Of a DNA stretch of 64,000 nt, positions 28,871-43,904 are shown one piece after another. The DNA comes from Jiangella endophytica (GTDB lineage: Bacteria > Actinomycetota > Actinomycetes > Jiangellales > Jiangellaceae), in contig NZ_QVAI01000010.1 in assembly GCF_003427025.1 (NCBI RefSeq), positions 124,001-188,000 of the forward strand, read 5' to 3'. Each line of letters starts with the position of its first letter. The stretch's first letter is position 1. The notes beneath the pieces were generated by a model, which was given only the letters and a program-made list of their open reading frames with translations, searched no databases and was not told the origin of the DNA. The translations under genes and the position numbers were made by a program.

Positions 28871-29791
28871 TCACTGCGGAACGGGGACACCAGAAACGTA
28901 CGCGATGGGCGTGACGGCCGGCTTACCGCACGACTCCGGACGGGGCGGTCGCTGCTCCTCGGCGTGGACGGCGACCGTCCAGCCGCGCCCGTCGCGGTGG
29001 GCGACGACGGCGTTCCAAGCGCGGTCGGCGGCCGCCGACACCGACGGCACCGACAGGTCGTCCAGCCCGGTGTCGCCGAGCAGACGGCGGACGGCGGCCT
29101 CGGCGGCCTGGCCCGGCCGGTCGAACGTGCTCCGCCCGCGGTACCCGTCGTCCAGGAAACGCCCCTCGCGCGCCGACTCGACCAGCAGCAGCGCCTGCTT
29201 GTCGTCCAGCCGTCCGTACGCGACGCCGTGCGGCAGCAGCACCGCCGTCGGCGCGAACCGGTGCCCGCCGAGGTGCGTCGTCTCCCAGACCCGGCCGAGG
29301 ACGTCGTCGCGCAGGCCGGCGACGAGTTGCCGCCCCTTCGCGGCACAGCAGAGGTCGCGCCGTCCGTTCGTGCAGACGAGCAGCAGCGGCTCGGTCTCGT
29401 GGCGCAGTTCCGGCGCCGCGGCCAGCACCGCCCGCTCGTCGCCCGAGCGCAGCGCGGCCCACGGCAGCGACCGCAGCACGTCGACCGTGCGCAGCCAGCC
29501 GCCGAGCAGGAACGTCGCACCGGGCGTGGTGCCGGCCAGCCAGACGCGGTGAGCGGCGGGGTCGTGGGTGTCGGGGTGCCGGCGCGGCCGCCGCACCAGC
29601 GCGACCCGCCCGCCGTGGTCACCGGCGGCGGCGTCGAGCGCGGCCCCGAGCACGGGATCGAGGTGCGACTGCGTCAGCGCCTTCGCGCCCCACGGCCCGG
29701 GCTGCTCGACGACCAGCCACCAGGCCGCGACAGGTGCCGTGCCGGCCAGCGGCTCGGACAGCTCGCGGCCGATGTCCGAGCAGAGCGTCAC
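28871..29791 (-). CDS. Sucrase/ferredoxin-like family protein
   Basis: This 306-residue soluble protein has a thioredoxin-like ferredoxin core. Cysteines occur at the N-terminus (TLCSD) and in LLVCTNGRRDLCCAAKG near residue 130. GGHRFAPTAVLLPHGVAYGRL follows near residue 172; this block typifies the family, where a Gly-Gly-x-Arg-Phe motif precedes a proline turn. Relatives may hold an iron-sulfur cluster, but no biochemical role is established and the sucrase name is historical. Its GTG start overlaps the transporter stop, tying it to the LprG/P55-like pair. Confidence 0.82.
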   Translation of the reverse strand: MTLCSDIGRELSEPLAGTAPVAAWWLVVEQPGPWGAKALTQSHLDPVLGAALDAAAGDHGGRVALVRRPRRHPDTHDPAAHRVWLAGTTPGATFLLGGWLRTVDVLRSLPWAALRSGDERAVLAAAPELRHETEPLLLVCTNGRRDLCCAAKGRQLVAGLRDDVLGRVWETTHLGGHRFAPTAVLLPHGVAYGRLDDKQALLLVESAREGRFLDDGYRGRSTFDRPGQAAEAAVRRLLGDTGLDDLSVPSVSAAADRAWNAVVAHRDGRGWTVAVHAEEQRPPRPESCGKPAVTPIAYVSGVPVPQ

Positions 29792-31530
29792 GCCTCCACG
29801 GTACGGGGCCGGTGCCGAAGCAGCAGCACGGCACCCACGGCGGCCGCCGCCGCGCACACGGCCGCCCCGGTGAACGTCGCCTGCAACTGCTCGACGATCG
29901 CCTGCCGGACGGCGTCGTCGTACGGGCCGCAGTCGGTGGGGGAGTTGGGGCACAGGACGGCCGGCGACGCGATGTCCGCCTGCACGGAGTAGAGGCGCCG
30001 CAGCCCGATGGCGGTCAGCGCCGACAGTCCGGCCAGCATGCCGATCATCCGCGCGACGACGAGCAGCGCGCTGGCCACTCCGTGGGTCTCGCGCGGCGCC
30101 GCGGCCAGCAGCGCCGCGTTCACCGGCGCGATCGCCAGCCCGAACCCGAGCCCGGCCGCCACCAGCACCGCGTCGTCGCCGATGCCGTCCAGTGATCCGA
30201 CGCCCCACGTCGCCATGACCGCGAGCCCGGCGGTGCCCAGCGCCATGCCGGCGCCGGCCAGCAGCGCGGGGCCGTACCGGCGCAGCAGCCAGCCGCCGAG
30301 CACCGCGCCCACCGGCAGCGCGACCAGGAACCGCAGCAACACCAGCGCGGCGTCGAGTTGGTCGGCGCCCTCGAGCACGGTGCGGGCGAGGATCGGGACG
30401 TCGACGACGACGGAGACCAGCGACGCGCCGATGAACAGGCTCACGACCAGCGCGCCCCAGGCGGGCATCGCCTTGACGGCGGCGGGCGGGACGAGCGGGG
30501 CGGTGGCACGGCGCTGCCGCCAGGCGAACGCCGCCAGCGCGACCGCGGACCCGGCCAGCAGCCACGGTCCGGACGGCGCCATCAGCTCGACCGCGGGGTC
30601 GGCGACGGCGAACGTCAGCACGATCCCGCCGAGCGCGACGCCGAGCAGCAGCGCCCCGGGCAGGTCGGCCGCCCGCAGGATCGCCGGGGTGCGGCGCAAC
30701 GGCAGCAGCGGCCGGCGCGCCGTCAGCTCGCGGGCGACGAACGCCGCGAGCAGCACGAACGAGGCCAGCGCGAGCGGTGTCGTCCACTCCTGGCCGTCGG
30801 CGCGCGGGACCAGCAGCTCGCCCCAGCGGACGCTGCGTTCCAAGGAGGCCGGCCGGGTGACGGCGACGCCGGCGCAGGCCAGCGCGCCCAGTCCGAGGAC
30901 CAGGCCGATGACGTCGAAGCGGCCGCGTGGAGCGTCCGGCTCGCCCGCCGGCCGGTCGTGGCGCGGCCCCGCCGCCGTGCCCACGAACAGCGCGGCACCG
31001 ACCGCGAAGTTCACCCAGAAGATCGCCCGCCAGTCCGCCACCGCGAGGATCGCCGCGCCGAACAGCGGGCCCAGCACCGACCCCAGCTCCTGCACGGCGC
31101 CGACCAGCCCGAGCGGCACCCCGCGCCGTTCAGGCGGCCACAGGTCGGCGACCAGCGCGAGTGTCACCGGCACCAGCGCACCGCCGCCCGCGCCCTGCAG
31201 GAACCGGCCGACGATCGCGCCCGCGACACCGTCGGCCGACGCCGTCAGCAGCGACCCGGCGGTGAACACCAGCAGCGAGCCGGTCAGCACGGGCAGCCGC
31301 CCGGTGACGTCCGACACGCGCCCGACCAGCGGCAGCACGACCACGTAGCCGAGCAGGAACATCGACACCAGGGGAGCGGCGCGCTGGAGTTCGTCGACGT
31401 CCAGCCCGACGCCCACCATCATGTCCGGCAGTGCCAGGACGATGACGTACGTGTCGGCGGCGGCCAGCAGAACGCCGACGACCCCGAGGGCGAGTGCGGC
31501 GCGGCCGGTTCGGTCAGCTCTCTGGAGCAC
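29788..31530 (-). CDS. MFS transporter, P55-like (14 helices)
   Basis: This 580-residue drug/proton-antiporter family protein has about 14 membrane helices. Motif A is GRVSDVTGRLPVLTG near residue 66, and helix 5 contains GAVQELGSVLGPLFGAAIL, a motif C-like antiporter signature. It directly follows, with 17-nt overlap, an LprG-type lipoprotein gene. That pair is the arrangement of the mycobacterial lprG-P55 operon, where the two proteins move triacylated lipids across the envelope. A similar role is inferred from context. An extra loop of about 20 residues (WGELLVPRADGQEW) sits between helices. Confidence 0.88.
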   Translation of the reverse strand: MLQRADRTGRAALALGVVGVLLAAADTYVIVLALPDMMVGVGLDVDELQRAAPLVSMFLLGYVVVLPLVGRVSDVTGRLPVLTGSLLVFTAGSLLTASADGVAGAIVGRFLQGAGGGALVPVTLALVADLWPPERRGVPLGLVGAVQELGSVLGPLFGAAILAVADWRAIFWVNFAVGAALFVGTAAGPRHDRPAGEPDAPRGRFDVIGLVLGLGALACAGVAVTRPASLERSVRWGELLVPRADGQEWTTPLALASFVLLAAFVARELTARRPLLPLRRTPAILRAADLPGALLLGVALGGIVLTFAVADPAVELMAPSGPWLLAGSAVALAAFAWRQRRATAPLVPPAAVKAMPAWGALVVSLFIGASLVSVVVDVPILARTVLEGADQLDAALVLLRFLVALPVGAVLGGWLLRRYGPALLAGAGMALGTAGLAVMATWGVGSLDGIGDDAVLVAAGLGFGLAIAPVNAALLAAAPRETHGVASALLVVARMIGMLAGLSALTAIGLRRLYSVQADIASPAVLCPNSPTDCGPYDDAVRQAIVEQLQATFTGAAVCAAAAAVGAVLLLRHRPRTVEA

Positions 31531-32230
31531 TGATCTCGGCGGGCTCGTCGTACTTGTCGAGGCGGACGGTGTAGGTCTGCTCGTCGCCGCTCTCGTAGAA
31601 CGGGCCGGTCAGCGTGGCCTGGCGCAGCTGGCCGGTCTCGGAGTCGAGCGCCCACACGGCCTGGACCTCGGCGGAGGGATCGGCGATGGTGAGCACCTCG
31701 CCGACCAGCTCGCCCGGCAGCACCGACTCGACCTGGTCGTAGACGTCGCCGTCGACGCGCACCTGCTCGCCGGCGGTGATCTCGGTCCCCGACGTCAGCA
31801 GCTGGCTGACGCCGTGGTCGGGGTCGATCAGCAGACCGGGGTCGCCGAACCCGAGCTCCTCGGCGTTGACTTCGTCGAACCCGCTGGTCAACGGCAGCTG
31901 CGCCCAGAGCTTGCCGTCGACGGAGACGATCTTGATGGTGGCCGGCAGCGCGCCCGCGCGGATGCGGATCTCGCCCTCGAACGACGACGGCGGCACTGCG
32001 ACCCCCTCGCCGCCGACGACGACCGTGCCTTCGTCGGGGAGGTCGTCGCCCTCCAGCTCGAACGTGACGCTGGACGCCTCGTTGAGTAGATCGGCGGCGG
32101 TCTCGAGTTGCGCCTGCGGGTCGCTCTCCGGCGTGCTTCCGCCGCCGTCGCCGTCGTCGCTGCACGCGGTCAGGGCCAGCGTGGCGGCGACGAGCGCGGC
32201 GGGCAGGACGCGGCGGGCGACGTTGCGCAT
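31514..32230 (-). CDS. lprG: LprG/LppX-type lipoprotein
   Basis: This 238-residue lipoprotein starts at ATG 32230. A signal peptide ends in the lipobox LTAC with Cys23, followed by an acidic linker. The mature domain shows the LppX/LprAFG pattern: LETAADLLNEASSVTFELEG near residue 45, a central KIVSVDGKLWAQLPLT strand, and the C-terminal TGQLRQATLTGPFYESGDEQ. Mycobacterial members form a cavity that carries triacylated lipids. The overlap with an MFS gene downstream supports the lprG name by synteny. It is divergent from another MFS operon at 32473. Confidence 0.87.
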   Translation of the reverse strand: MRNVARRVLPAALVAATLALTACSDDGDGGGSTPESDPQAQLETAADLLNEASSVTFELEGDDLPDEGTVVVGGEGVAVPPSSFEGEIRIRAGALPATIKIVSVDGKLWAQLPLTSGFDEVNAEELGFGDPGLLIDPDHGVSQLLTSGTEITAGEQVRVDGDVYDQVESVLPGELVGEVLTIADPSAEVQAVWALDSETGQLRQATLTGPFYESGDEQTYTVRLDKYDEPAEISAPES

Positions 32231-32364
32231 GACGGCAGTCTGCCAGCCTTTCCACGCCCCGTGACCCGCGACACCCGACCTGGACATCGACAGCTCTCCT
32301 CCCGTTCGGTGCGCGGCCACGATGCGAGGTCGCGGCTGTGATTTTGCTGAGAGTTCCCGAAATT

Positions 32365-34817: not shown

Positions 34818-37349
34818 CTACTCCAGCTCCAACGTCCCCTGTTCTCCGTCGCCGGCCGGTTCGGGCGCGGGCGGGGCCACCTCGGCATCGTCGCCCCCGG
34901 CGAGCGGGCCGGCGATCGCGGCGATCGGCTGCGCCACCGCGATTCCGGAGCCGTCGCGACGACCGGTCGCCGGCGGCAGCTCGATCGGCACGCCGCTCGC
35001 GGCCGCCGCCCGGGCCGGGGCCACCCCGGCCCACGCGAGCAGGAGGGTGTCCTCGCCCTTGAGGAACCGGTGGCAGCGCACGCCGCCGGTCGCCCGGCCC
35101 TTCGCGGGGTACTCCGAGTAGGGCGTCACCTTGACCGCCCCCGGCTGCGTGCCGGGCAGCGCCGTCGACGAGCCGGAGACGGTGACGACCGCGCCGGACC
35201 TCGACGCGTCGGCCGAGCCGAAGAACGTGACCTTGGCCCCGGCCGCCAGTTTGATGCCGGCGATGCCTCCGCCTGCCCGGCCCTGCGGCCGGACCGACGA
35301 GGCGGCGAAGCGCAGCAGCTGCGCGTCGGAGCTGATGAAGACGAGGTCCTCGTCGCCGGTGCGCAGCTCGACGGCGCCGACGACGCGGTCGCCGTCGTCG
35401 AGGCGGATGACGTCGTAGGCGTCCTTGCCGGGGTGGTCGGGGACGACGCGTTTGACGACGCCGCGTTCCGTCGCCAGCGCCAGGCCCGGCGACGAGTCGG
35501 AGAACGTCGTCAATGCCAGCGCCCGCTCACCGGGCTCGAGCTCGATGAACTCCTTCAACGCCGCGCCGCCGGCCAACGTCAGCGCCGCCGTCGGAGGCAG
35601 CGCCGGAAGGTCGAGCACCGACAGTCGCAGCACCCGGCCGGCCGACGTGACGACGCCGACCTGGCCGCGCGCCGTGGCGCCGGCCACGGACACGACGACG
35701 TCGTGCTTGGACCGCTTGTCGCCGTAGACCAGCGGCTCCTCGCCCGCTGTGCGGGCCAGCAGGCCGGAGGACGACAGCAGCACCTGGCACGGGTCGTCGG
35801 CGATCTCGAGCGAGGTGGCGCCCGCCCGCGAGGTGACGGCGCCGGACTCCTCGAGCAGGACGGTGCGTCGCGGCGTCGCGTGCGCGGCGGCGATCTCGGC
35901 CAGCTCGTCGGAGACCGCCTTGCGCAGCAGCGTCTCGTTCTCGAGCAGCGCCGTGAGCTCCTCGATGGTGCGGCGCAGCTCCTCGCCCTCCTTCTCCAGC
36001 TCCAGCCGGTCGTACCGGGTGAGCCGGCGCAGCGGGGTGTCGAGGATGTAGCGGGCCTGGATGTCGCTGAGGTCGAAGACGGTCATCAGGCGCTCGCGCG
36101 CGGCGCTGGCGTCGTCGGACGAGCGGATGACCGCGATGACCTCGTCGATGTCGAGCAGTGCGACCATCAGGCCGTCGACCAGGTGCAGCCGGTCGGCCGC
36201 CTTCGTGCGGCGGAACTCGCTGCGCCGCCGGACGACGTCGAGGCGGTGGGCGATGAAGACCTCGAGCAGCTCCTTGAGGCCCAGCGTGCGCGGCTGGCCG
36301 TCGACCAGCGCGACGTTGTTGATGGAGAACGAGTCCTCGAGCGGGGTGAGGCGGTACAGCTCTTCCAGCACCGCCTCGGGCACGAACCCGCTCTTCAGCT
36401 CGATGACCAGGCGCAGCGCGGTGTTGCGGTCGGTGTAGTCGACGACGTCGGCGACGCCCTGCAGCTTCTTGTTGCGGACGAGCTCGACGATGCGCTCGCG
36501 GACCCGCTCCGGGCCGACCATGTACGGCAGCTCGGTGATGACGATGCCCTTGCGGCGGGCGGTGATGTTCTCGACGCGGGCGGTCGCGCGGGTCTTGAAC
36601 GCGCCCCGGCCGGACTCGTAGGCGTCGCGGACGCCGTCGAGCCCGATGATGCGCCCGCCGCTGGGGAGGTCGGGCCCTGGGACGAATCGCATGAGGTCGT
36701 CCAGCGACGCCTCGGGGTGGGTCAGCAGGTGCCGCGTGGCGTCGATGACCTCGCCGAGGTTGTGCGGCGCCATGTTCGTCGCCATGCCGACGGCGATGCC
36801 GGTGGCGCCGTTGACCAGCAGGTTCGGGAACGCCGCCGGAAGCACCTCGGGCTGCTCGAACTGCCCGTCGTAGTTCGGCACCATGTTGACGACGTTCTCG
36901 TCGAGCGACCTGACCAGCAGCATCGCCGGCTCGCTCATGCGGCACTCGGTGTACCGGTATGCGGCCGGACCGGCGTCGAGCGAGCCGAAGTTGCCGTGCC
37001 CGTCGACCAGCGGCACCCGCATGGCCCACGGCTGCGCCATGCGCACGAGGGTGTCGTAGATGGCGCCGTCGCCGTGCGGGTGCAGCTTGCCCATCACGTC
37101 GCCGACGACGCGGCCGCACTTGACGTGCGGGCGGTCGGGGCGCAGACCCATCTCGTTCATCTGGAACAGGATCCGGCGCTGCACCGGCTTCAGCCCGTCG
37201 CGGGCGTCCGGGATGGCGCGGGAGTAGATGACCGAATAGGCGTACTCGAGGAAGCTGCCCCGCATCTCGTCCGAGACGTCGACGTCGAGAATGACTTCCT
37301 CGAAGTCCTCGGACGGGGGTGTCGTGGTCCGGCGTGCCATGCCATCCAT
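34818..37349 (-). CDS. parC: DNA topoisomerase IV subunit A
   Basis: This 843-residue breakage-reunion subunit starts at ATG 37349 or the second ATG at 37340. The winged-helix region has [19 protein letters not shown]; the catalytic tyrosine is Tyr133 in [12 protein letters not shown]. The quinolone-determining segment reads [15 protein letters not shown], with Gly in the usual Ser83 position of E. coli GyrA. The C-terminal beta-pinwheel (about residues 505-805) lacks a clear GyrA box, which favours ParC over GyrA. The tail is acidic. Its start lies 46 nt after the last of five tandem paralogs on the same strand, so it may share their transcript. Confidence 0.93.
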
Positions 37350-37395: not shown

Positions 37396-38004
37396 TCAGG
37401 ACGACATCTCGATCGAGATCACGAAGATGGCGGCCACGGAGGGCACCACGACGAGCACCCCGGCGAGGACGGGATAGCGCTCGAGCAGGGGGACGGCGTG
37501 CGGGTAGCGGCGGGCGAGAGCGCGCGCCGAGGCCAGCCGTCCGAGTTTGTGGGTCTCGACGCCGAGCACGGCGAGGAGCCGGCGCATGTCGTCCTCGACC
37601 CAGCGGGCGCCGGACATGCGGGCGAGCCGCCGGCCGCCACGGTCCAGAACGTACAGGTGGGCGAGGCTGCGGCTGTTCTTGTGCGTGCGGGGGAGCGCCG
37701 CGGTGACGATCGACCCGACGGCGTCGCGGGGGACGCGGCGCGTGCGCAGCAACCCCGTGACGGCCAGCTCGGACGGCGTGACGGTGATGGCGGCGCGCCG
37801 GAACCAGGCCGGCGCGATGCTCGACACCAGCACGATGACGCTCAGCGACACGATCGCGCCGAATGCGCCACCACGCAGCAGCAACGCCGCCAGCAGCACC
37901 ACGATCGGCAGCAGCGACCACTTGACGGTGCTCAGGTAGCGGCGCAGCGACGGCCGCAGTACGAGCGCCGCTGCGGGCAGGGGTCCGGGCACGGCCAGCA
38001 TCAT
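37396..38004 (-). CDS. Membrane PH-like paralog 5 (most divergent)
   Basis: This 202-residue protein starts at ATG 38004 (or 38001). Two helices lie at about residues 28-62 and one at the C-terminus (about 178-198). Between them a beta-rich domain begins with ITVTPSELAVTGLL, the family motif. Later blocks correspond to those of the other four copies but are weaker: RRLARMSGARW for LLRIHG, and ALARRYPHAVPLLERYP for the third motif. It is the last of the five and the closest to parC. The fold is inferred to be PH-like, as in other two-helix plus bPH proteins. No function is known. Confidence 0.82.
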   Translation of the reverse strand: MMLAVPGPLPAAALVLRPSLRRYLSTVKWSLLPIVVLLAALLLRGGAFGAIVSLSVIVLVSSIAPAWFRRAAITVTPSELAVTGLLRTRRVPRDAVGSIVTAALPRTHKNSRSLAHLYVLDRGGRRLARMSGARWVEDDMRRLLAVLGVETHKLGRLASARALARRYPHAVPLLERYPVLAGVLVVVPSVAAIFVISIEMSS

Positions 38005-38018
38005 AGGCGTGGACGGGG

Positions 38019-38603
38019 TCAGCCCGACAGGGCCGCGATCACGGTACCGACGACGACCGCCACGACGGCGAAGCCCAAGGCGCAGAGCAGGATGAACGCG
38101 AGCATGTGCCGCTCGACCCAGCTGCTGGCGCCGGGCTGCTCGCGGGCGAACTGCCCGGCGCTGACGGGACCCTCGGACCCGGCGACCGGCAGGTCGAGGT
38201 GGTCGACCAGCCGGTCCAGGTCGGCGACGGAGAAGAGAGCGCCGTTGATGCGCAGCAGGGCACGCTGGTCTGGATCGAAGAGGACGATGGTCTCGGCGGG
38301 TGCGGCCCCGGGCTGGACCACCTTGGTCCGGAGGATCGAGGCGGCGTCCGCGCGGTCGCGGCGGCGGTGGAACCACAGGCCGCGCACCGAGATCTCGGTG
38401 GGGGTGACGACGATGTGGGAGCGCCGCAGATAGACGGCGATGGCGGCGGCCAGCAGCAGGGCGAGGCCGATGCCGGTGAACAGGGCCGGCCTGCCGCCGG
38501 CCATGACGCCGCCGATGACGAGGACGACGGCGATCACGGCGGTGATCGCGAGGGCGTGCCGGCGCGGCCCGGGAGCCGGCCGGAGGACGAGAGCGTTGGA
38601 CAC
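38019..38603 (-). CDS. Membrane PH-like paralog 4
   Basis: This 194-residue protein starts at GTG 38603; the frame runs further upstream but overlaps paralog 3. The family layout is clear: ALVLRPAPGPRRHAL at the N-terminus, a helix pair near residues 18-55, then IVVTPTEISVRGLWFHRRRD. ALLRINGALFSVADLDRLVDHL follows, then SAGQFAREQPGASSWVERH before a final helix. It lies 14 nt before paralog 5. It has diverged from copies 1-3 in the third block. Confidence 0.84.
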   Translation of the reverse strand: MSNALVLRPAPGPRRHALAITAVIAVVLVIGGVMAGGRPALFTGIGLALLLAAAIAVYLRRSHIVVTPTEISVRGLWFHRRRDRADAASILRTKVVQPGAAPAETIVLFDPDQRALLRINGALFSVADLDRLVDHLDLPVAGSEGPVSAGQFAREQPGASSWVERHMLAFILLCALGFAVVAVVVGTVIAALSG

Positions 38604-38659
38604 GGCCCCGACCCTAGAACACGGCGAGGGGCGCTTCGGTCGTGGCGCGCTCGGCCGGG

Positions 38660-39238
38660 TCAGGCCGACAGGACCACGGCCGCGGTGCCGATGAGGATGA
38701 CCAGCACCACGGTGCCGCACCCGACCGCGAAGGCGAAGGAATACGGCCGCCGCTCGGGCCACCGCACGATGCCGGGGTGCTCGCGGTCCAGCTGGGCCGC
38801 GGTCATCGGCCGGTCGTGCTCGACGGCGGGCCGGCCCAGCCGCCGGACCAGCTCGTCGAGGTCGTGGGTCTCGTAGTGCCCGGCGTTGATCCGCATCAGG
38901 ACCTGGTCGCCGGCCCCGCGCAGGAAGAGCGTCGGCGCCGCCGGGCCGCGGGGCGGGATCACGGTGGCCCGGACGATGGTCGTCACGTCACCCAGCGGCT
39001 GCATGCGGGCGCCGAACAGCCCGGTGACCGCGACCTCCGACGGTGTGAGGACGATGCGCGATCGCGACAGGTAGAAGAAGCCGATGCCCAGGCCGGCGGC
39101 GCCGATGATCAGCGAGACCAGCAGCCCGGCGACCCCGCCGGCGATCGTCGCCGCCATGACGAAGACGGCGAGGACCAGTCCGGCGGTGACCATGACGGTA
39201 CGCCGGCGCCGCGCCGACGGCCGCAACTCCAGCAGCAT
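38660..39238 (-). CDS. Membrane PH-like paralog 3
   Basis: This 192-residue protein opens with LLELRPSARRRRTVM. A helix pair spans about residues 16-56. The central domain starts IVLTPSEVAVTGLFGARM and contains VLMRINAGHYETHDLDELVRRL. The third block is TAAQLDREHPGIVRWPERRP, followed by a C-terminal helix (about residues 168-190). It lies between paralogs 2 and 4 with gaps of 43 and 56 nt. Both ends of the central domain face the cytoplasm if the usual positive-inside rule holds. Confidence 0.85.
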   Translation of the reverse strand: MLLELRPSARRRRTVMVTAGLVLAVFVMAATIAGGVAGLLVSLIIGAAGLGIGFFYLSRSRIVLTPSEVAVTGLFGARMQPLGDVTTIVRATVIPPRGPAAPTLFLRGAGDQVLMRINAGHYETHDLDELVRRLGRPAVEHDRPMTAAQLDREHPGIVRWPERRPYSFAFAVGCGTVVLVILIGTAAVVLSA

Positions 39239-39281
39239 GGCCTGGAACCCTAGGGCATGAGTGCCGCGCTGCGCGCCCGGG

Positions 39282-39872
39282 TCAGCGGGTGCTGCTGACG
39301 ACCGCGAGCACGATGATCAGCAGAGCCATCGACCCGAAGGCGACGAGCAGCGAGAACGCGATGGGCCGCCGCTCGGCGAACGGCACGATGCCCGGGTACC
39401 GGCGGGCCAGCTGCGCGGCGGTGACGGGCGCGCCCGGGCCGCCGGTGGGCAGCCCGAGTCGTGCCACCAGCTGGTCGAGGTCGGCGGTCTCGTAGTTGCT
39501 GCCGTGGATGCGCAGCAGGACGTGGTCGTCGCGGTCGCGGACGAAGACGGTGTCGGCCATCGAGCCGCGGACCGGGATGACGACCGCCCGGACGACCGAC
39601 GCGGCCCGGGCGCGGTCACGTCGCCGGTGGACGACGAGGCCACGAACGGCGATCTCGGAGCGGGTGAGGACGACGCGGGCCCGCCGCAGATGACCGTGGA
39701 GGATCGCCAGCACGACGGCCGCGAGCACGAGTCCGCCGAGCAGGCCGACGATGCCGCCGGGAATCGCGAGGAACACGGTGATCAGGCCGGTGACCACCAC
39801 GCCGAGCACCAGAGCGGACCGGCGCCGTCTCGACGACGGGCGCAGTTCGAGATCGTCCAGGCCGGCTGACAT
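39282..39872 (-). CDS. Membrane PH-like paralog 2
   Basis: This 196-residue protein opens with LELRPSSRRRRSALVLG. A glycine-rich helix pair spans about residues 20-58. The beta-rich domain starts VVLTRSEIAVRGLVVHRRRD, where Arg replaces the family Pro. Blocks VLLRIHGSNYETADLDQLVARL and TAAQLARRYPGIVPFAERRP are nearly the family consensus. A final helix ends the protein. It lies 36 nt after paralog 1. Of the copies, this one is among the closest to paralog 1. Confidence 0.85.
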   Translation of the reverse strand: MSAGLDDLELRPSSRRRRSALVLGVVVTGLITVFLAIPGGIVGLLGGLVLAAVVLAILHGHLRRARVVLTRSEIAVRGLVVHRRRDRARAASVVRAVVIPVRGSMADTVFVRDRDDHVLLRIHGSNYETADLDQLVARLGLPTGGPGAPVTAAQLARRYPGIVPFAERRPIAFSLLVAFGSMALLIIVLAVVSSTR

Positions 39873-39908
39873 CGCCGTCGATCCTAGGGGACGCTCCTGG
39901 GCGGCCGC

Positions 39909-40487
39909 TCAGAGCATGGTGGCCGCGATGATCAGCGAGATGACGGTCACCAGCACGACGATCGCGCCCACCACGGCGAAGCCGAACTTGTACGGGTGCC
40001 GCTCGATCCACGGCACGATGCCGTGGTACTGCTTGGCCACCTGGTTCGCGGTGAGCGGCCGGTCCGCCGTCACGGTGGGCAGGCGGAGGTGCTCGACCAG
40101 CCGGTCGAGGTCGGCGGTGGGGTAGTTGACGCCGTGGATGCGCAGCAGCAGCTTCTCGTCGCGATCCAGGACGAAGAGCGAGTCGTTCGCCGGGGCGCGC
40201 GGCGCCACCACCGTGGCCCGCACGATCGACGCCGCCTGGTAGCGGTCGGCCCGCTTGTGCGTGACGAACCCGCGGACGGAGATCTCCGACGGCGTGACGA
40301 CGATGCGCGAGCGCAGCAGGTGGCCGGCGACGGGCACCACCACCAGAGAGGCCACGGCCAGCCCGGCCAGCACCCCGGTCGTGCCGCCGGCGGCGCCCGC
40401 GTAGACGCACAACCCGACGAAGACGATGACCGGAATCAGGGCCAGGGGCCGGTGCCGAACGGTCGGCCGCAGGACGAGCTCCGTCAT
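39909..40487 (-). CDS. Membrane PH-like paralog 1
   Basis: This 192-residue protein is the first of five tandem copies and lies only 9 nt after the sensor kinase stop. It has ELVLRPTVRHRPLALIP at the start, a helix pair (about residues 16-56), then IVVTPSEISVRGFVTHKRAD. A RATVVAPR strand, the block LLLRIHGVNYPTADLDRLVEHL, and TANQVAKQYHGIVPWIERHP follow, before a C-terminal helix near residue 168-190. The domain between helices resembles bacterial PH domains (DUF304/bPH-like), an inference from pattern only. The operon position suggests control by the upstream two-component system. Confidence 0.85.
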   Translation of the reverse strand: MTELVLRPTVRHRPLALIPVIVFVGLCVYAGAAGGTTGVLAGLAVASLVVVPVAGHLLRSRIVVTPSEISVRGFVTHKRADRYQAASIVRATVVAPRAPANDSLFVLDRDEKLLLRIHGVNYPTADLDRLVEHLRLPTVTADRPLTANQVAKQYHGIVPWIERHPYKFGFAVVGAIVVLVTVISLIIAATML

Positions 40488-40496
40488 GCCCAGACC

Positions 40497-41882
40497 CTAG
40501 GACACGGCCTCGGGCGCGCCGATGGTGGCCTTGGCGGCCGGCAGTGTGACGACGAACCGGGCGCCGGGCGCGGCGTTCTCGACGACGATCGTGCCGCCGT
40601 GTGCGACGACGATCTCGCGGGCGATCGCCAGCCCCAGCCCGGACCCGCCGGCGTCGCGGTCGCGGGCGTCGTCGAGGCGGGTGAAGCGCTCGAAGATGCG
40701 TTCGCGGTCCGCCTCGCGCACACCGCTGCCGTCGTCGGCGACCGCGACCCGTGCCCTGCCGCCGGAGGTCGTCACGACCACCTCCACCTGCGACGACGCG
40801 TGCCGGACGGCGTTGTCGACGAGGTTGCGCAGCACCCGGGAGAGGGAGTCGCGGTGACCGCGCGTGTAGACGTCGTCGCCGGCGTCGACGCGCACCTCGA
40901 CCCGTCCGTCGCGCACGCCCTCGGCCACCTCGATGGCCAGCTCGCCGAGATCGACCAGCTCGTCGCGCCGTACCGGCCGCGGGCTGTCCAGATGCGCGAG
41001 CACCAGCAGGTCGTCGACCAGCCGGGCCATGCGCTGGACCTCGACCAGGGCCTCGCGGGCGGTGTCGTGCGGGTCGACGGCGTCGGGGTGCGCCAGCGCG
41101 ACCTCCAGCTCCGTCCGCAGCACGGCGATGGGACTGCGCAGCTCGTGGGCGGCGTCGGCGACGAACGCGCGCTGCCGGGCCGCCGCCGCGTCGAGCCGGC
41201 CGAGCATGTCGTTGAGCGTCACCGCGAGCCGGCTGAGCTCGTCGCCCCCGGCCGGGACCGGCAGCCGGTGCCCGCCGCCGGCGCCGGTGATCTCCTCGGC
41301 GCCGCCGCGCAGCCGGTCGACCGGGCGCAGCGCGCGAAGGATGACCAGCCAGCTCAGCACCGCCAGAGCGGCCGTGACGGAGAGGCCGCCGGCGAACACG
41401 CCGATCTTCGCGAACCGGACGGAGCGCTGCTGCTCCTCGAGCGACACGGCGACGATGACGGTGCGCGGCTCGCCCGCGTCGTCGGTGGGCACGCCGACCA
41501 CGCGCAGCGGTTCCGGCTGGCCGAGCCGGGTGCCGTCGAGGCCGATCGCCTCGCCGGCCCGAACCGCGGCGAGGTCGTCGCCCGCGACCACCGGCGTGAG
41601 GCGGTCGCCGCCGGGCGTCGAGGCGACCACGCGATCGTCGTCGTCGAGCACCTGCGCGACGACGGCGCCGAAGCCGGGCAGCGGGTCGGGCAGCCGGCCG
41701 GACTCGACCAGCGTCGCGATGTCCTCGCCCTGCCGCCGCGCCGTCTCGTCCAGCGCGCCCAGCAGCGCGCGGTCCAGCGCGACCAGCAGCAGCACGCCGC
41801 CGATGCCCAGGCCCACCGCGGCCATCGCGGTGGCGGCCAGGGTGAGCCGGGCACGCAGGCTCATGCGGCCGAAGACGGCCAC
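40497..41882 (-). CDS. Sensor histidine kinase, EnvZ/MprB-like
   Basis: This 461-residue kinase has two membrane helices (about 14-36 and 160-182) flanking an extracytoplasmic sensor of about 120 residues rich in Asp and Pro. A HAMP domain follows (about 183-236). His246 lies in VADAAHELRSPIAVLRTELE, and the ATPase domain has NLVDNAVRHA, a DDGSGV motif and GSGLGLAIAREIV. It starts 1 nt after the regulator stop and ends 9 nt before paralog 1. This is the classical OmpR-partner layout seen in actinobacterial envelope-stress sensors; the stimulus is unknown. Confidence 0.94.
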   Translation of the reverse strand: MAVFGRMSLRARLTLAATAMAAVGLGIGGVLLLVALDRALLGALDETARRQGEDIATLVESGRLPDPLPGFGAVVAQVLDDDDRVVASTPGGDRLTPVVAGDDLAAVRAGEAIGLDGTRLGQPEPLRVVGVPTDDAGEPRTVIVAVSLEEQQRSVRFAKIGVFAGGLSVTAALAVLSWLVILRALRPVDRLRGGAEEITGAGGGHRLPVPAGGDELSRLAVTLNDMLGRLDAAAARQRAFVADAAHELRSPIAVLRTELEVALAHPDAVDPHDTAREALVEVQRMARLVDDLLVLAHLDSPRPVRRDELVDLGELAIEVAEGVRDGRVEVRVDAGDDVYTRGHRDSLSRVLRNLVDNAVRHASSQVEVVVTTSGGRARVAVADDGSGVREADRERIFERFTRLDDARDRDAGGSGLGLAIAREIVVAHGGTIVVENAAPGARFVVTLPAAKATIGAPEAVS

Positions 41883-41883
41883 C

Positions 41884-42561
41884 TCAGCCGCCGTCGCCGC
41901 TCAGGCGGTAGCCGGCGCCGCGCACGGTCTGCACCGCGGCCCGGCCGAACGGGGTGTCGATCTTGCGCCGGAGGTAGCCGACGTAGACCTCGACGACGTT
42001 GGGGTCGCCGTCGTAGTGGGCGTCCCAGACGTGTTCGAGGATGTCGCGCTTGGACACGACCTCGTCGGCGCGGCGCATGAGGAACTCGAGCACGCCGAAC
42101 TCGCGCGGCGTCAGCGTGACCTCGGCGTCGCCGCGGCGCACCGTCTTCGCGCCCGGGTCCAGCTCGAGGTCGCCGGCGCTCAGCACGGCCGGGCGGGCCG
42201 GCGCGCCGCGGCGCAGCAGCGCTCGCAGCCGCGCGACCAGCACGACGTAGGAGAACGGCTTGGTGAGGTAGTCGTCGGCGCCGACGTCGAGGCCGTCGGC
42301 CTGGTCATACTCGCCGTCCTTGGCCGACAGCATGAGGATCGGCACCCAGTTGCCCTCGGCCCGCAGCGTCTGGCAGATGCGATAGCCCGACAGCGATGGG
42401 AGCATGATGTCGAGCACGATGACGTCGTAGGCGTTCTCGCGGGCCAGGTGCAGGCCGTCGAGGCCGTCGTGGGTCACCTCGACGGAGAACCCCTCCGCCG
42501 ACAGCCCGCGGTGCAGCGCGCGGGCCAGCCCGCGCTCGTCCTCGACCACCAGCACCCGCAT
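41884..42561 (-). CDS. OmpR/PhoB-family response regulator
   Basis: This 225-residue regulator starts at ATG 42561; the open frame extends upstream without further support. The receiver has acidic pair 8-9 in VVEDERG, phosphoacceptor Asp51 (VIVLDIMLP) and Lys101 in DYLTKPF. The C-terminal winged helix contains LTPREFGVLEFLMRRADEVVSK and EVYVGYLRRKID. It heads a run of eight reverse-strand genes ending with parC. In the 146-nt divergent region there are 10-11-nt direct repeats upstream of the LolA-like gene, a plausible binding array for it. Confidence 0.95.
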   Translation of the reverse strand: MRVLVVEDERGLARALHRGLSAEGFSVEVTHDGLDGLHLARENAYDVIVLDIMLPSLSGYRICQTLRAEGNWVPILMLSAKDGEYDQADGLDVGADDYLTKPFSYVVLVARLRALLRRGAPARPAVLSAGDLELDPGAKTVRRGDAEVTLTPREFGVLEFLMRRADEVVSKRDILEHVWDAHYDGDPNVVEVYVGYLRRKIDTPFGRAAVQTVRGAGYRLSGDGG

Positions 42562-42659
42562 GTCGTCAAGCATGCCCTGCCGCACGCGACGCCGGTCGGC
42601 GGCTCTCAGGGATCTCACAGCGACGGCGAGGCAACCTGGGTGTCATCGGGGTGAAACCC

Positions 42660-42707: not shown

Positions 42708-43904
42708 ATGCCGAACTCCCTTCTCAGCACCCCGGCCAGGCGGTGGGCGACCGGTGCCACGGTCGCGACCGTGGTCGTCGGCGCGGCCGTGGCCGGCCCG
42801 CTGATCGCCGGTGCCGACTCCGAACTGCCCGACCGCACGGCCGCCGAGCTGCTCGTCGACCTCGCGAGCCTCGACGTCCAGCCGTTCGCCGGCACCGTCG
42901 TGCAGTCCGCCGACGTCGGCCTTCCCGAGCTGGCCAACAGCGACACCACGTCGCTGCCCACGGCCGCCCTGTCGCTGCTCAACGGGTCGTCCACGGCTCG
43001 CATCTGGTACACCGACGGCGACACCTACCGCTTCGCGCTGCAGGACGACCAAGCCGAGTCCGACCTCATCCGCAACGGCCAGGACCTCTGGTTCTGGAGC
43101 AGCGAGGGGGCCAGCGCCTCACACCTGGTCCTCCCCGAGGACACGGGCGACGACGCCACCGGCGGCCCGTTCGGCGGCGACAACCCGTTCGGCGGCGAGG
43201 GCATGGAGGGCCTGCCCGAGGACCTCCCGGCCGACGTTCCCACCGCGGCCGCCTCGCTGGCGCTGGCGATGATCGAGCCGTCCACCCAGGTCGACGTCGA
43301 CGGCACGGCCACCGTGGCCGGCCGGCACGCGTACGAACTGGTGCTGCGGCCCAAGGACGAGCAGTCGCTGATCGGCTCCATCCGGCTGGCCGTCGACGGC
43401 GAGACGTCCATGCCGCTGCGGGTGCAGTTCGTCGCCCGCGACGCCAGCGAGCCGTCGTTCGAGGTCGGCTTCACCTCGATCTCCTTCGACGAGCCCGACG
43501 CGTCGACGTACGAGTTCGCCCCGCCGCCCGGCACCACGGTCGACGAGATCCAGCCCGACGAGCTCGACGACGCCGCCGCGCAGCACCACCCGGGCGCCGG
43601 CGCCGGCCACGAGGGCATGGACCAGTCCGACGTGTCCGTGGTCGGTTCCGGCTGGAGCAGCGTCTTCGTCCTCCGCGGCGTCGACCTCGACCAGCTCACC
43701 GCCGGCCTCGACGGCGACGCCGCCGCCATGGCCGACGCCTTCCTGGCCGACTTCCAGGACGTCAGTGGCCCGTACGGCACCGGCCGGGCCATGACGAGCG
43801 ACCTGTTCACCGTCCTCCTCCTCGACGACGGCCGGCTGCTCATGGGCGCCGTCCCGCTGGAGGTCCTCGAGCAGGCCGCGCAGGACCCCGCCGCCGCGCT
43901 GTAA
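42708..43904 (+). CDS. Exported LolA/RseB-like protein (DUF2092 type)
   Basis: This 398-residue protein starts at ATG 42708 after AGGAGA. One helix near residues 14-34 is a signal anchor or cleavable signal. The remaining domain has the LolA/RseB half-barrel pattern: SLLNGSSTARIWYTDGDTYRFAL, QDLWFWSS, and HAYELVLRPKDEQSLIGSI. Such domains sense or carry lipids outside the membrane. A Gly/Pro-rich loop (GGPFGGDNPFGGEG) follows residue 160. It is divergent from the OmpR-type regulator, so it may be the sensed or regulated partner of that system. A strong terminator follows 25 nt after its stop. Confidence 0.82.
   Translation: MPNSLLSTPARRWATGATVATVVVGAAVAGPLIAGADSELPDRTAAELLVDLASLDVQPFAGTVVQSADVGLPELANSDTTSLPTAALSLLNGSSTARIWYTDGDTYRFALQDDQAESDLIRNGQDLWFWSSEGASASHLVLPEDTGDDATGGPFGGDNPFGGEGMEGLPEDLPADVPTAAASLALAMIEPSTQVDVDGTATVAGRHAYELVLRPKDEQSLIGSIRLAVDGETSMPLRVQFVARDASEPSFEVGFTSISFDEPDASTYEFAPPPGTTVDEIQPDELDDAAAQHHPGAGAGHEGMDQSDVSVVGSGWSSVFVLRGVDLDQLTAGLDGDAAAMADAFLADFQDVSGPYGTGRAMTSDLFTVLLLDDGRLLMGAVPLEVLEQAAQDPAAAL

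Follow-up and report, generated by a model that had tools for sequence, protein, structure and literature searches.

A tandem array of membrane proteins with a predicted PH-like fold behind a two-component system in Jiangella endophytica: a candidate lineage-specific addition to an envelope-stress regulon

Why should a bacterial two-component system be followed by five adjacent copies of a gene for one kind of small membrane protein? The question is raised by a stretch of 64,000 nucleotides from Jiangella endophytica (assembly GCF_003427025.1, contig NZ_QVAI01000010.1, positions 124,001-188,000), here called the window; coordinates below are window positions unless a locus label is given. The best reading, given a probability of about 0.46, is that the five paralogs are PH-fold membrane accessory or assembly proteins in the envelope-stress regulon of a two-component system older than the array itself. 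Taken singly, bacterial PH proteins, an OmpR-type system, and tandem duplication are all familiar. In the literature searched, which was thin on subscription journals, no title or abstract described the combination of array and regulon, the inserted-hairpin plan in a bacterial family lacking a model, or the three-site regulon reported here.

All seven genes of the locus lie on the minus strand. The first encodes an OmpR/PhoB-type response regulator (41884-42561) in which Response_reg (95.2 bits, E 3.5e-27) and Trans_reg_C (91.2 bits, E 4.5e-26) both exceed their cut-offs, and whose recognition region resembles that of Mycobacterium tuberculosis PhoP. One nucleotide further on is the gene for a sensor histidine kinase with HAMP, HisKA, and HATPase_c profile domains (40497-41882, GTG start), which is followed 9 nt later by the array: copy 1 (39909-40487, 192 residues), copy 2 (39282-39872, 196 residues), copy 3 (38660-39238, 192 residues), copy 4 (38019-38603, 194 residues, GTG start), and copy 5 (37396-38004, 202 residues). 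By homology and a tree, these copies represent orthologue groups A to E in that order, the assignment of copy 2 to group B being tentative. The copies are separated by 36, 43, 56, and 14 nt, and 46 nt lie between copy 5 and a topoisomerase gene. A preliminary description of the locus had given the same genes, strand, and spacing, all of which are confirmed. A simple sigma-70 promoter and terminator scan found neither promoter-like sites nor terminators between the genes of the array; two terminator-like sites fall within copies 3 and 4, where 0.6 were expected.

By sequence, the homology of the five copies is far beyond chance. Copy 1 recovers copies 2 to 5 within its own genome at E-values of 2.1e-46 to 1.5e-16 (the next-best match is no better than 0.2), and its identity to them is 47% (copy 2), 39% (copy 3), 40% (copy 4), and 32% (copy 5). 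Nineteen positions are invariant across the five, including LxLRP, GG at 34-35, T65, E68, V71, G73, R116, D126, and ER at 162-163. The three motifs described earlier (VTPSE-I-x-V-x-G; LLRI-[HN]-G with DLD-x-LV; TAxQ-x-AR-x-x-PG with ER-x-P) are real but degenerate. Among the five in the window, copy 5 diverges most, as had been noted, yet it is retained in more species than any other. The closest named match of copy 1 is a Jiangella anatolica protein at 75% identity. No Pfam or NCBIfam model scores above its cut-off for any of the five copies, and a PDB sequence search returned no notable solved relative, so membership of a known family by sequence was set aside. The best Pfam hint is bPH_6 on copy 5 (12.2 bits against a cut-off of 22); the best bacterial PH scores across 48 family members are E 0.0055 for bPH_10 and 0.018 for bPH_6, and the matches of 19 wider members at E 0.01 include no bacterial PH family. 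By the curated cut-offs, the proteins thus fall outside the named Pfam families bPH_6 and bPH_10. A phage origin was also considered and dropped, copy 1 having no match in 50,697 phage records.

What sequence does not name, structure prediction suggests. AlphaFold2 models were made of copy 1 (5-row alignment, mean pLDDT 80, pTM 0.65) and copy 5 (8-row alignment, mean pLDDT 77, pTM 0.69), and both begin with a short strand and membrane helices, continue with six strands, the capping helix, and another short strand, and end with small helices that lead into a long one. For copy 1, the first strand occupies residues 4-6 and the helices of a hairpin residues 14-34 and 36-59, after which the barrel begins. 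The layout given in the preliminary description holds for the hydrophobic hairpin and C-terminal helix, since membrane-like hydropathy segments occur in both regions in all five copies, but its “short basic N-terminus” contains the predicted barrel's first strand. With one strand before the membrane helices and six after them, the models are predicted to have the seven-stranded beta sandwich and C-terminal capping helix of a PH-like fold. The PH-like fold proposed earlier is therefore borne out as a prediction for copies 1 and 5, and the Foldseek and VIA lists for both are dominated by PH-like domains. The scores are modest: the best Foldseek E-value is 2e-3 for copy 1 and 7e-4 for copy 5, and the best VIA Z is 7.9 and 6.5, respectively. 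Soluble PH domains align onto copy 1 from residue 1-2, with far fewer aligned residues than the range spanned, so the first strand appears to be part of the barrel. The PH domains of eukaryotic histone chaperones (FACT, Rtt106), which rank high in these searches, were taken to reflect the common fold and not a function.

The position of the hairpin recalls EROS. This protein (8kei_D) heads the VIA list of copy 5, where 134 residues align at Z 6.5, and falls less than 1 Z below the top match for copy 1 (Z 7.2, 130 residues). Since common arrangements can also produce VIA Z values in this range, the likeness is read as a shared plan and not as proof of kinship. A 2022 paper modelling EROS (PMC9767466) describes a PH domain interrupted near its N-terminus by an antiparallel membrane hairpin, names PIGH as similar, and calls helices inserted in a PH domain unobserved in known structures. 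The Jiangella proteins apparently follow the same plan, a PH-like barrel interrupted by a membrane hairpin, as modelled in copy 1 alone. No sequence match to EROS or PIGH emerged from the Pfam and PDB sequence searches, beyond whose reach kinship may lie. Basic residues flank the hairpin, and by the positive-inside rule they would place the barrel in the cytosol.

A profile built from the five copies finds the family in 20 of 22 Jiangellaceae genomes, comprising all 12 Jiangella genomes (the window's own and 11 others) and 8 of 10 others; the two genomes in which it is missed are 75 and 81% complete. Outside Jiangellaceae this profile gives one weak match among 38 genomes. A 48-row profile matches 46 of 393 genomes of the class: the same number of Jiangellaceae, 20, plus 26 of 371 outside, which are spread over five other families. 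One match is found in 22 of these 26 genomes and two in four, and the two are close together only in G046 (about 1.2 kb apart, both weak; G and L labels denote genomes and fetched loci). The array is specific to Jiangellaceae, with one to five copies and patchy orthologues. The tree comprises 48 rows with a domain score of at least 40 bits; two fragments from G011, at 33 and 31 bits, and the weak match in G046 are not among them.

Within Jiangella, the groups A to E given by the tree keep a constant order, and their presence varies between genomes. The window has ABCDE; G010, G004, and G008 have ACDE; G009 has CDE, G005 ADE, G006 ABE, G001 DE, G007 AE, and G003 BE; G011 has E and a degraded D; and G002 has E at a contig end. 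The match to copy A of G004 covers only positions 2-158 of the model's 194. Group E thus occurs in 12/12 genomes, A and an intact D in 7 each, C in 5, and B in 3, and copy 5 is the core of the array. The preliminary description had suggested a modular, possibly hetero-oligomeric assembly. A membrane ring or pore built from five different subunits would have precedent in that soluble bacterial PH proteins form rings and that a transporter or pore role has been proposed for membrane members (Xu et al. 2010, PMC2817789). Only E is universal, however; each of the other four groups went undetected in 5 to 9 of the 12 genomes (G002 being cut by its contig end), which contradicts a fixed five-subunit complex. 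A ring of E, or of whichever copies are available, is not contradicted, and the ring or pore as a whole is the least probable of the explanations weighed here.

Selection on the copies was gauged by a simple Nei-Gojobori omega, which is rough on a high-GC genome and used five of the seven members of group A. Median omega is 0.44 for E, 0.46 for A, 0.49 for B, 0.65 for C, and 0.71 for D; for comparison, the regulator has 0.14, the kinase 0.34, and the RseB-like protein described below 0.45. C and D are the fast groups, and the others are not conspicuous. Adaptive divergence, raised earlier as an alternative to a modular assembly, is not shown by these values. Positive selection was rejected on the same grounds, with group medians below 1 throughout and single pairs reaching 0.94. 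The array is young and variable, and copy loss can be seen directly at L050 3567-3926 in G011, where most of the PH region of a D-type copy is gone. An extra A-type copy lies far from the array in G010 (L049 9630-10208); the stretch fetched around it has no relative of the regulator, kinase, RseB-like, or topoisomerase proteins and no sigR-rsrA.

How closely, then, is the array bound to the two-component system? Across Jiangellaceae, the order of a divergent RseB-like gene followed by regulator, kinase, copies, and topoisomerase recurs, with insertions in some genomes, and regulator, kinase, and copies stand in the same order in all 16 loci (window included) that have both a copy and a kinase. 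The conserved downstream neighbour, identified by profile match and synteny, is a type II topoisomerase subunit A gene of the GyrA/ParC family (34818-37349, minus strand); it had been labelled parC, and it passes the general subunit A model but does not reach the ParC or GyrA equivalog cut-offs. In L043 (10902-11630) and L046 (8172-8915), a gene with a DinB_2 domain (scanned in L043) and an N-terminus that is pentapeptide-like by eye stands between copy E and the topoisomerase gene. Outside Jiangellaceae, 20 loci were fetched; L075, L077, L078, and L079 yielded no copy under the gene filter, and in the 16 whose neighbours could be read (15 of which entered alignment A4), the family member has nothing related to the regulator, the kinase, the RseB-like protein, or the topoisomerase near it. 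Whether homologs occur only as single genes apart from a kinase and regulator, a point on which the preliminary description had hung its idea of a system, therefore has a mixed answer: a fixed order in the 16 Jiangellaceae loci with both a copy and a kinase, no linkage in the 16 readable loci outside.

The other partner of the system is encoded on the plus strand at 42708-43904, divergently from the regulator and kinase that are its neighbours. Its product is an exported RseB/LolA-like protein with a partial MucB_RseB match (23.4 bits against a cut-off of 22.3, E 5.1e-5) and a LolA match below cut-off (E 1.1e-4); RseB proper is a sigma-E regulator that goes with a cognate sigma factor and anti-sigma factor. 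Relatives of this protein occur in 76 of 246 genomes of the class, 56 of them outside Jiangellaceae. In 30 such loci, one of which in each set ends at a contig border, the regulator is adjacent in 19/19 from Jiangellaceae and 8/11 from outside, and the kinase in 18/19 and 8/11. No array copies were seen in wider stretches from nine genomes of other families, in six of which the regulator was recognised (the gene filter misses some genes). The unit of regulator, kinase, and RseB/LolA-like protein is older than the array, is widespread, and exists without it. The earlier idea of a sensor “dedicated” to the array is accordingly not supported: the unit has no copy near it in those six stretches, nor any between the kinase and topoisomerase genes in two Jiangellaceae genomes. 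CutRS, a Streptomyces secretion-stress system, was considered as the identity of the unit and set aside; the main text of a 2025 CutRS paper does not mention LolA, RseB, or a lipoprotein. ABC-transporter-like gene pairs, recognised by eye, lie beside the RseB-like gene at L127 10842-12756, L125 10885-12673, L135 2262-4089, and L134 10644-12618 and are a possible further output of the same system.

The same evidence bears on the idea that the kinase is itself what the copies act on, as accessory modulators in the membrane whose hairpin or PH domain would tune its signalling. Their position directly behind the kinase in most Jiangellaceae loci speaks for this, as does a membrane-anchored form with a predicted protein-binding domain, but kinases with no adjacent copy in G012, G019, and other actinomycetes, and homologues with no kinase nearby, speak against it, and the idea is improbable.

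A second line of evidence comes from DNA sites. The gap between the regulator and the RseB-like gene contains the direct repeat CTGTGAG-N4-CTGAGAG (42603-42620, minus strand), 42 bp upstream of the regulator and conserved in 12/12 Jiangella. Among 18 further loci, all 15 with a regulator have a match in this gap of at least 11 of the 14 letters (11 to 14); some 11-letter matches also occur elsewhere in those loci, so the lowest score is weak alone. The site was not found in the remaining three, where no regulator was seen and one of which (L119) ends at a contig border. Genomes were searched with CTGTGAN5CTGAGAG, a form loosened slightly after the comparison across loci, and with the reversed pattern as a control. 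Each of the 12 Jiangella genomes has exactly three sites, and the reversed pattern has none in any of them. The 36 sites divide into 12 before the regulator and RseB-like gene (42-43 bp from the regulator), 12 before a lipoprotein gene of the LppX/LprG type (106-134 bp), and 12 before an MMPL-family exporter gene (50-54 bp); the pattern was derived from the first of these, so the other 24 are the independent finds.

In the window, the second predicted site (32336-32353, plus strand) lies 106 bp upstream of an LprG/LppX-like lipoprotein gene (31514-32230, minus strand; LppX_LprAFG 2.7e-13), which overlaps a gene for a transporter of the MFS family (29788-31530, minus strand; MFS_1 6.7e-40). Both are predicted targets. 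Together with the site (29788-32353) they stand at a distance of about 5 kb from the array, and a divergent MFS gene and a TetR gene adjoin them. The third site, before the MmpL-family exporter gene, is elsewhere in the genome (L169 near 5148; G000:C23:123147) and is likewise kept in 12/12 Jiangella. In other Jiangellaceae, exact sites precede MmpL-like genes in G012, G018, G019, G020, and G021 and lipoprotein genes in G019 and G021, the genes being identified by sequence resemblance. The RseB-like protein is found in 7 of the 9 genomes outside Jiangellaceae that have an exact site, compared with 47 of 181 overall (Fisher p 0.0013, assuming that both samples hold these genomes). The three sites conserved throughout Jiangella suggest an envelope regulon for lipid or lipoprotein export, to which the array would be a lineage-specific addition. 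Two other occurrences are recorded here: one more single-mismatch site in the window's genome (G000:C5:203346-203363; L141, L170), and an exact site before a DksA/TraR-type zinc-finger gene in two other Jiangellaceae genera (L193 near 3774, by profile; L198 near 3736, by resemblance). The regulator shares the recognition region NVVExYVxYLRRKID with M. tuberculosis PhoP, which is among its best solved relatives (E 7e-49) and which requires 7-bp repeats with a 4-bp spacer (PMC4832192).

From these elements a mechanism may be proposed. The Jiangellaceae would have added small PH-fold membrane proteins, encoded in tandem, to an old actinomycete two-component system for envelope stress. The kinase would sense how the envelope fares, probably helped by the exported RseB/LolA-like protein encoded divergently, and the regulator would bind the 7-bp direct repeats with their 4-bp spacer before its own operon and the RseB-like gene, the LprG-like-MFS pair, and the MmpL exporter gene. 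The combined action of these targets would be outward traffic of lipids or lipoproteins. With the array beginning 9 nt after the kinase, its genes would be produced along with it, and we infer that the array is controlled by the two-component system in this way. Each copy would consist of a short N-terminus, the first beta strand, a basic stretch, and a membrane hairpin inserted in a cytosolic PH-like barrel, followed by the capping helix, which carries DLDxLV, by the conserved stretch with TAxxLAR, PG, and ERxP, and by a final membrane helix. The likeliest role for each is to bind a single partner among the membrane proteins, either the kinase or a subunit of an exporter, and to hold or assemble that partner in the manner of EROS with its oxidase; the assembly role is proposed because of the PH-like shape of the protein and its genomic setting. 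The paralogs would differ in their partner or in the conditions under which they serve.

Several observations weigh against this proposal, and many of them favor the most serious rival, in which the array is a passenger: a membrane PH-fold gene that landed between the kinase and topoisomerase genes in the Jiangellaceae lineage and was duplicated and lost under weak selection, with a function of its own and no two-component control. The same system stands without an array in G012 and G019, where the kinase gene, itself next to the regulator gene, is followed after about 100 nt by the topoisomerase gene without an intervening copy, and homologues in other families lack a nearby regulator or kinase. 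In two of the 16 loci, those of the Jiangella genomes G003 and G006, kinase and array are separated by two inserted genes, one for a reductase on the same strand as the array and one, divergent, for an HTH-cupin regulator (L041 10259-11955, L044 10949-12654; the reductase is thioredoxin-reductase-like, by profile scan in L041 only), so that simple read-through from the kinase into the array is not possible there. The degraded D copy and the fast evolution of groups C and D fit weak constraint. Further points bear on the fold and the sites. The hairpin region of the copy 5 model is one unbroken helix by DSSP (residues 20-70), its turn not resolved; the Foldseek E-values are weak, and VIA Z scores of 6-8 can come from common arrangements. 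The site faces the RseB-like, lipoprotein, and MmpL genes in one common orientation and the operon of regulator, kinase, and array in the other, and it need not therefore activate the array. G015, G016, and G017 have an exact match at the regulator site only, and outside Jiangellaceae 11 exact sites in 9 of 181 genomes compare with 6 sites in 6 genomes for the reversed control, so an exact match alone means little there.

Against a passenger array stand the presence of copy E in 12/12 Jiangella with a median omega of 0.44, the mere 9 nt that part the array from the kinase in the window, and the lack of any promoter-like site inside the array in the simple scan. A further point is the setting of a second clade of the family, whose standalone members lie downstream of sigR-rsrA in 6/6 loci from two other Jiangellaceae genera (L058 9513-11219, L059, L051, L052, L061, L056), adjoining it directly in five and about 1.5 kb away in G017. 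Both settings of the family, the two-component system and sigR-rsrA, are stress regulators. A passenger array is on balance unlikely, though a good deal less so than kinase modulators or a ring, and accessory or assembly proteins within the envelope-stress regulon are preferred.

The findings matter in several respects. A membrane protein family that has no Pfam or NCBIfam model is now seen in six actinomycete families, and its predicted architecture, a hairpin within a PH barrel, is one that in 2022 was called unobserved in known structures. Its tandem expansion is tied to an envelope system for which conserved sites (36/36 in Jiangella) outline a small regulon. Through the predicted regulon of LolA/RseB-like, LprG-MFS, and MmpL proteins, a two-component system widespread in actinomycetes can be linked, in a way open to testing, to the export of lipids or lipoproteins. 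On a bolder view, which is a long shot, the copies might be bacterial EROS-type PH-fold chaperones, tandem paralogs made under envelope stress, each of which assembles or protects one exporter such as MmpL or the LprG-linked MFS transporter; if so, changes in copy number would tune which exporters a species can build.

Compared with known systems, each part of the locus has a partial counterpart. The lipoprotein gene overlapping an MFS transporter gene resembles the LprG-P55 lipid transport pair (Rv1411c-Rv1410c), except that the pair here lies behind a predicted two-component site; the MFS transporter is presumably P55-like, an assumption that rests on its lipoprotein pairing and not on an equivalog model. 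The regulator resembles M. tuberculosis PhoP in its recognition region, in the 7-bp direct repeat with a 4-bp spacer, and in a TCACAGC half-site at 42615-42621, and differs in the first half-site and in predicted targets that are RseB/LolA-like, LprG-MFS, and MmpL proteins; the likeness need not mean orthology. The bacterial PH (PHb) membrane families (bPH_6, bPH_10/YqeB-like, DUF2244, YdbS/YdbT) are also small membrane proteins with a predicted cytosolic PH-like domain, whereas the window copies score below the Pfam cut-offs and form a tandem array behind a two-component system. Of these families, YdbS/YdbT are described as membrane bacterial PH proteins in one source (PMC8657885), and another (PMC2817789) links bacterial PH proteins to envelope stress and reports that DUF2244 and DUF1200 lack strand 1, with helices preceding the domain; the window copies, in contrast, have a strand before the helices. 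From EROS/CYBC1, the NOX2 chaperone, and from PIGH, the window copies differ in being bacterial, in having one strand instead of two before the hairpin, in an extra C-terminal membrane helix, in the absence of a sequence match in Pfam or the PDB, and in the hairpin turn that the copy 5 model does not resolve. What they would share with these proteins is the plan itself, a PH domain with an inserted hairpin, over which EROS aligns with 130-134 residues of the models.

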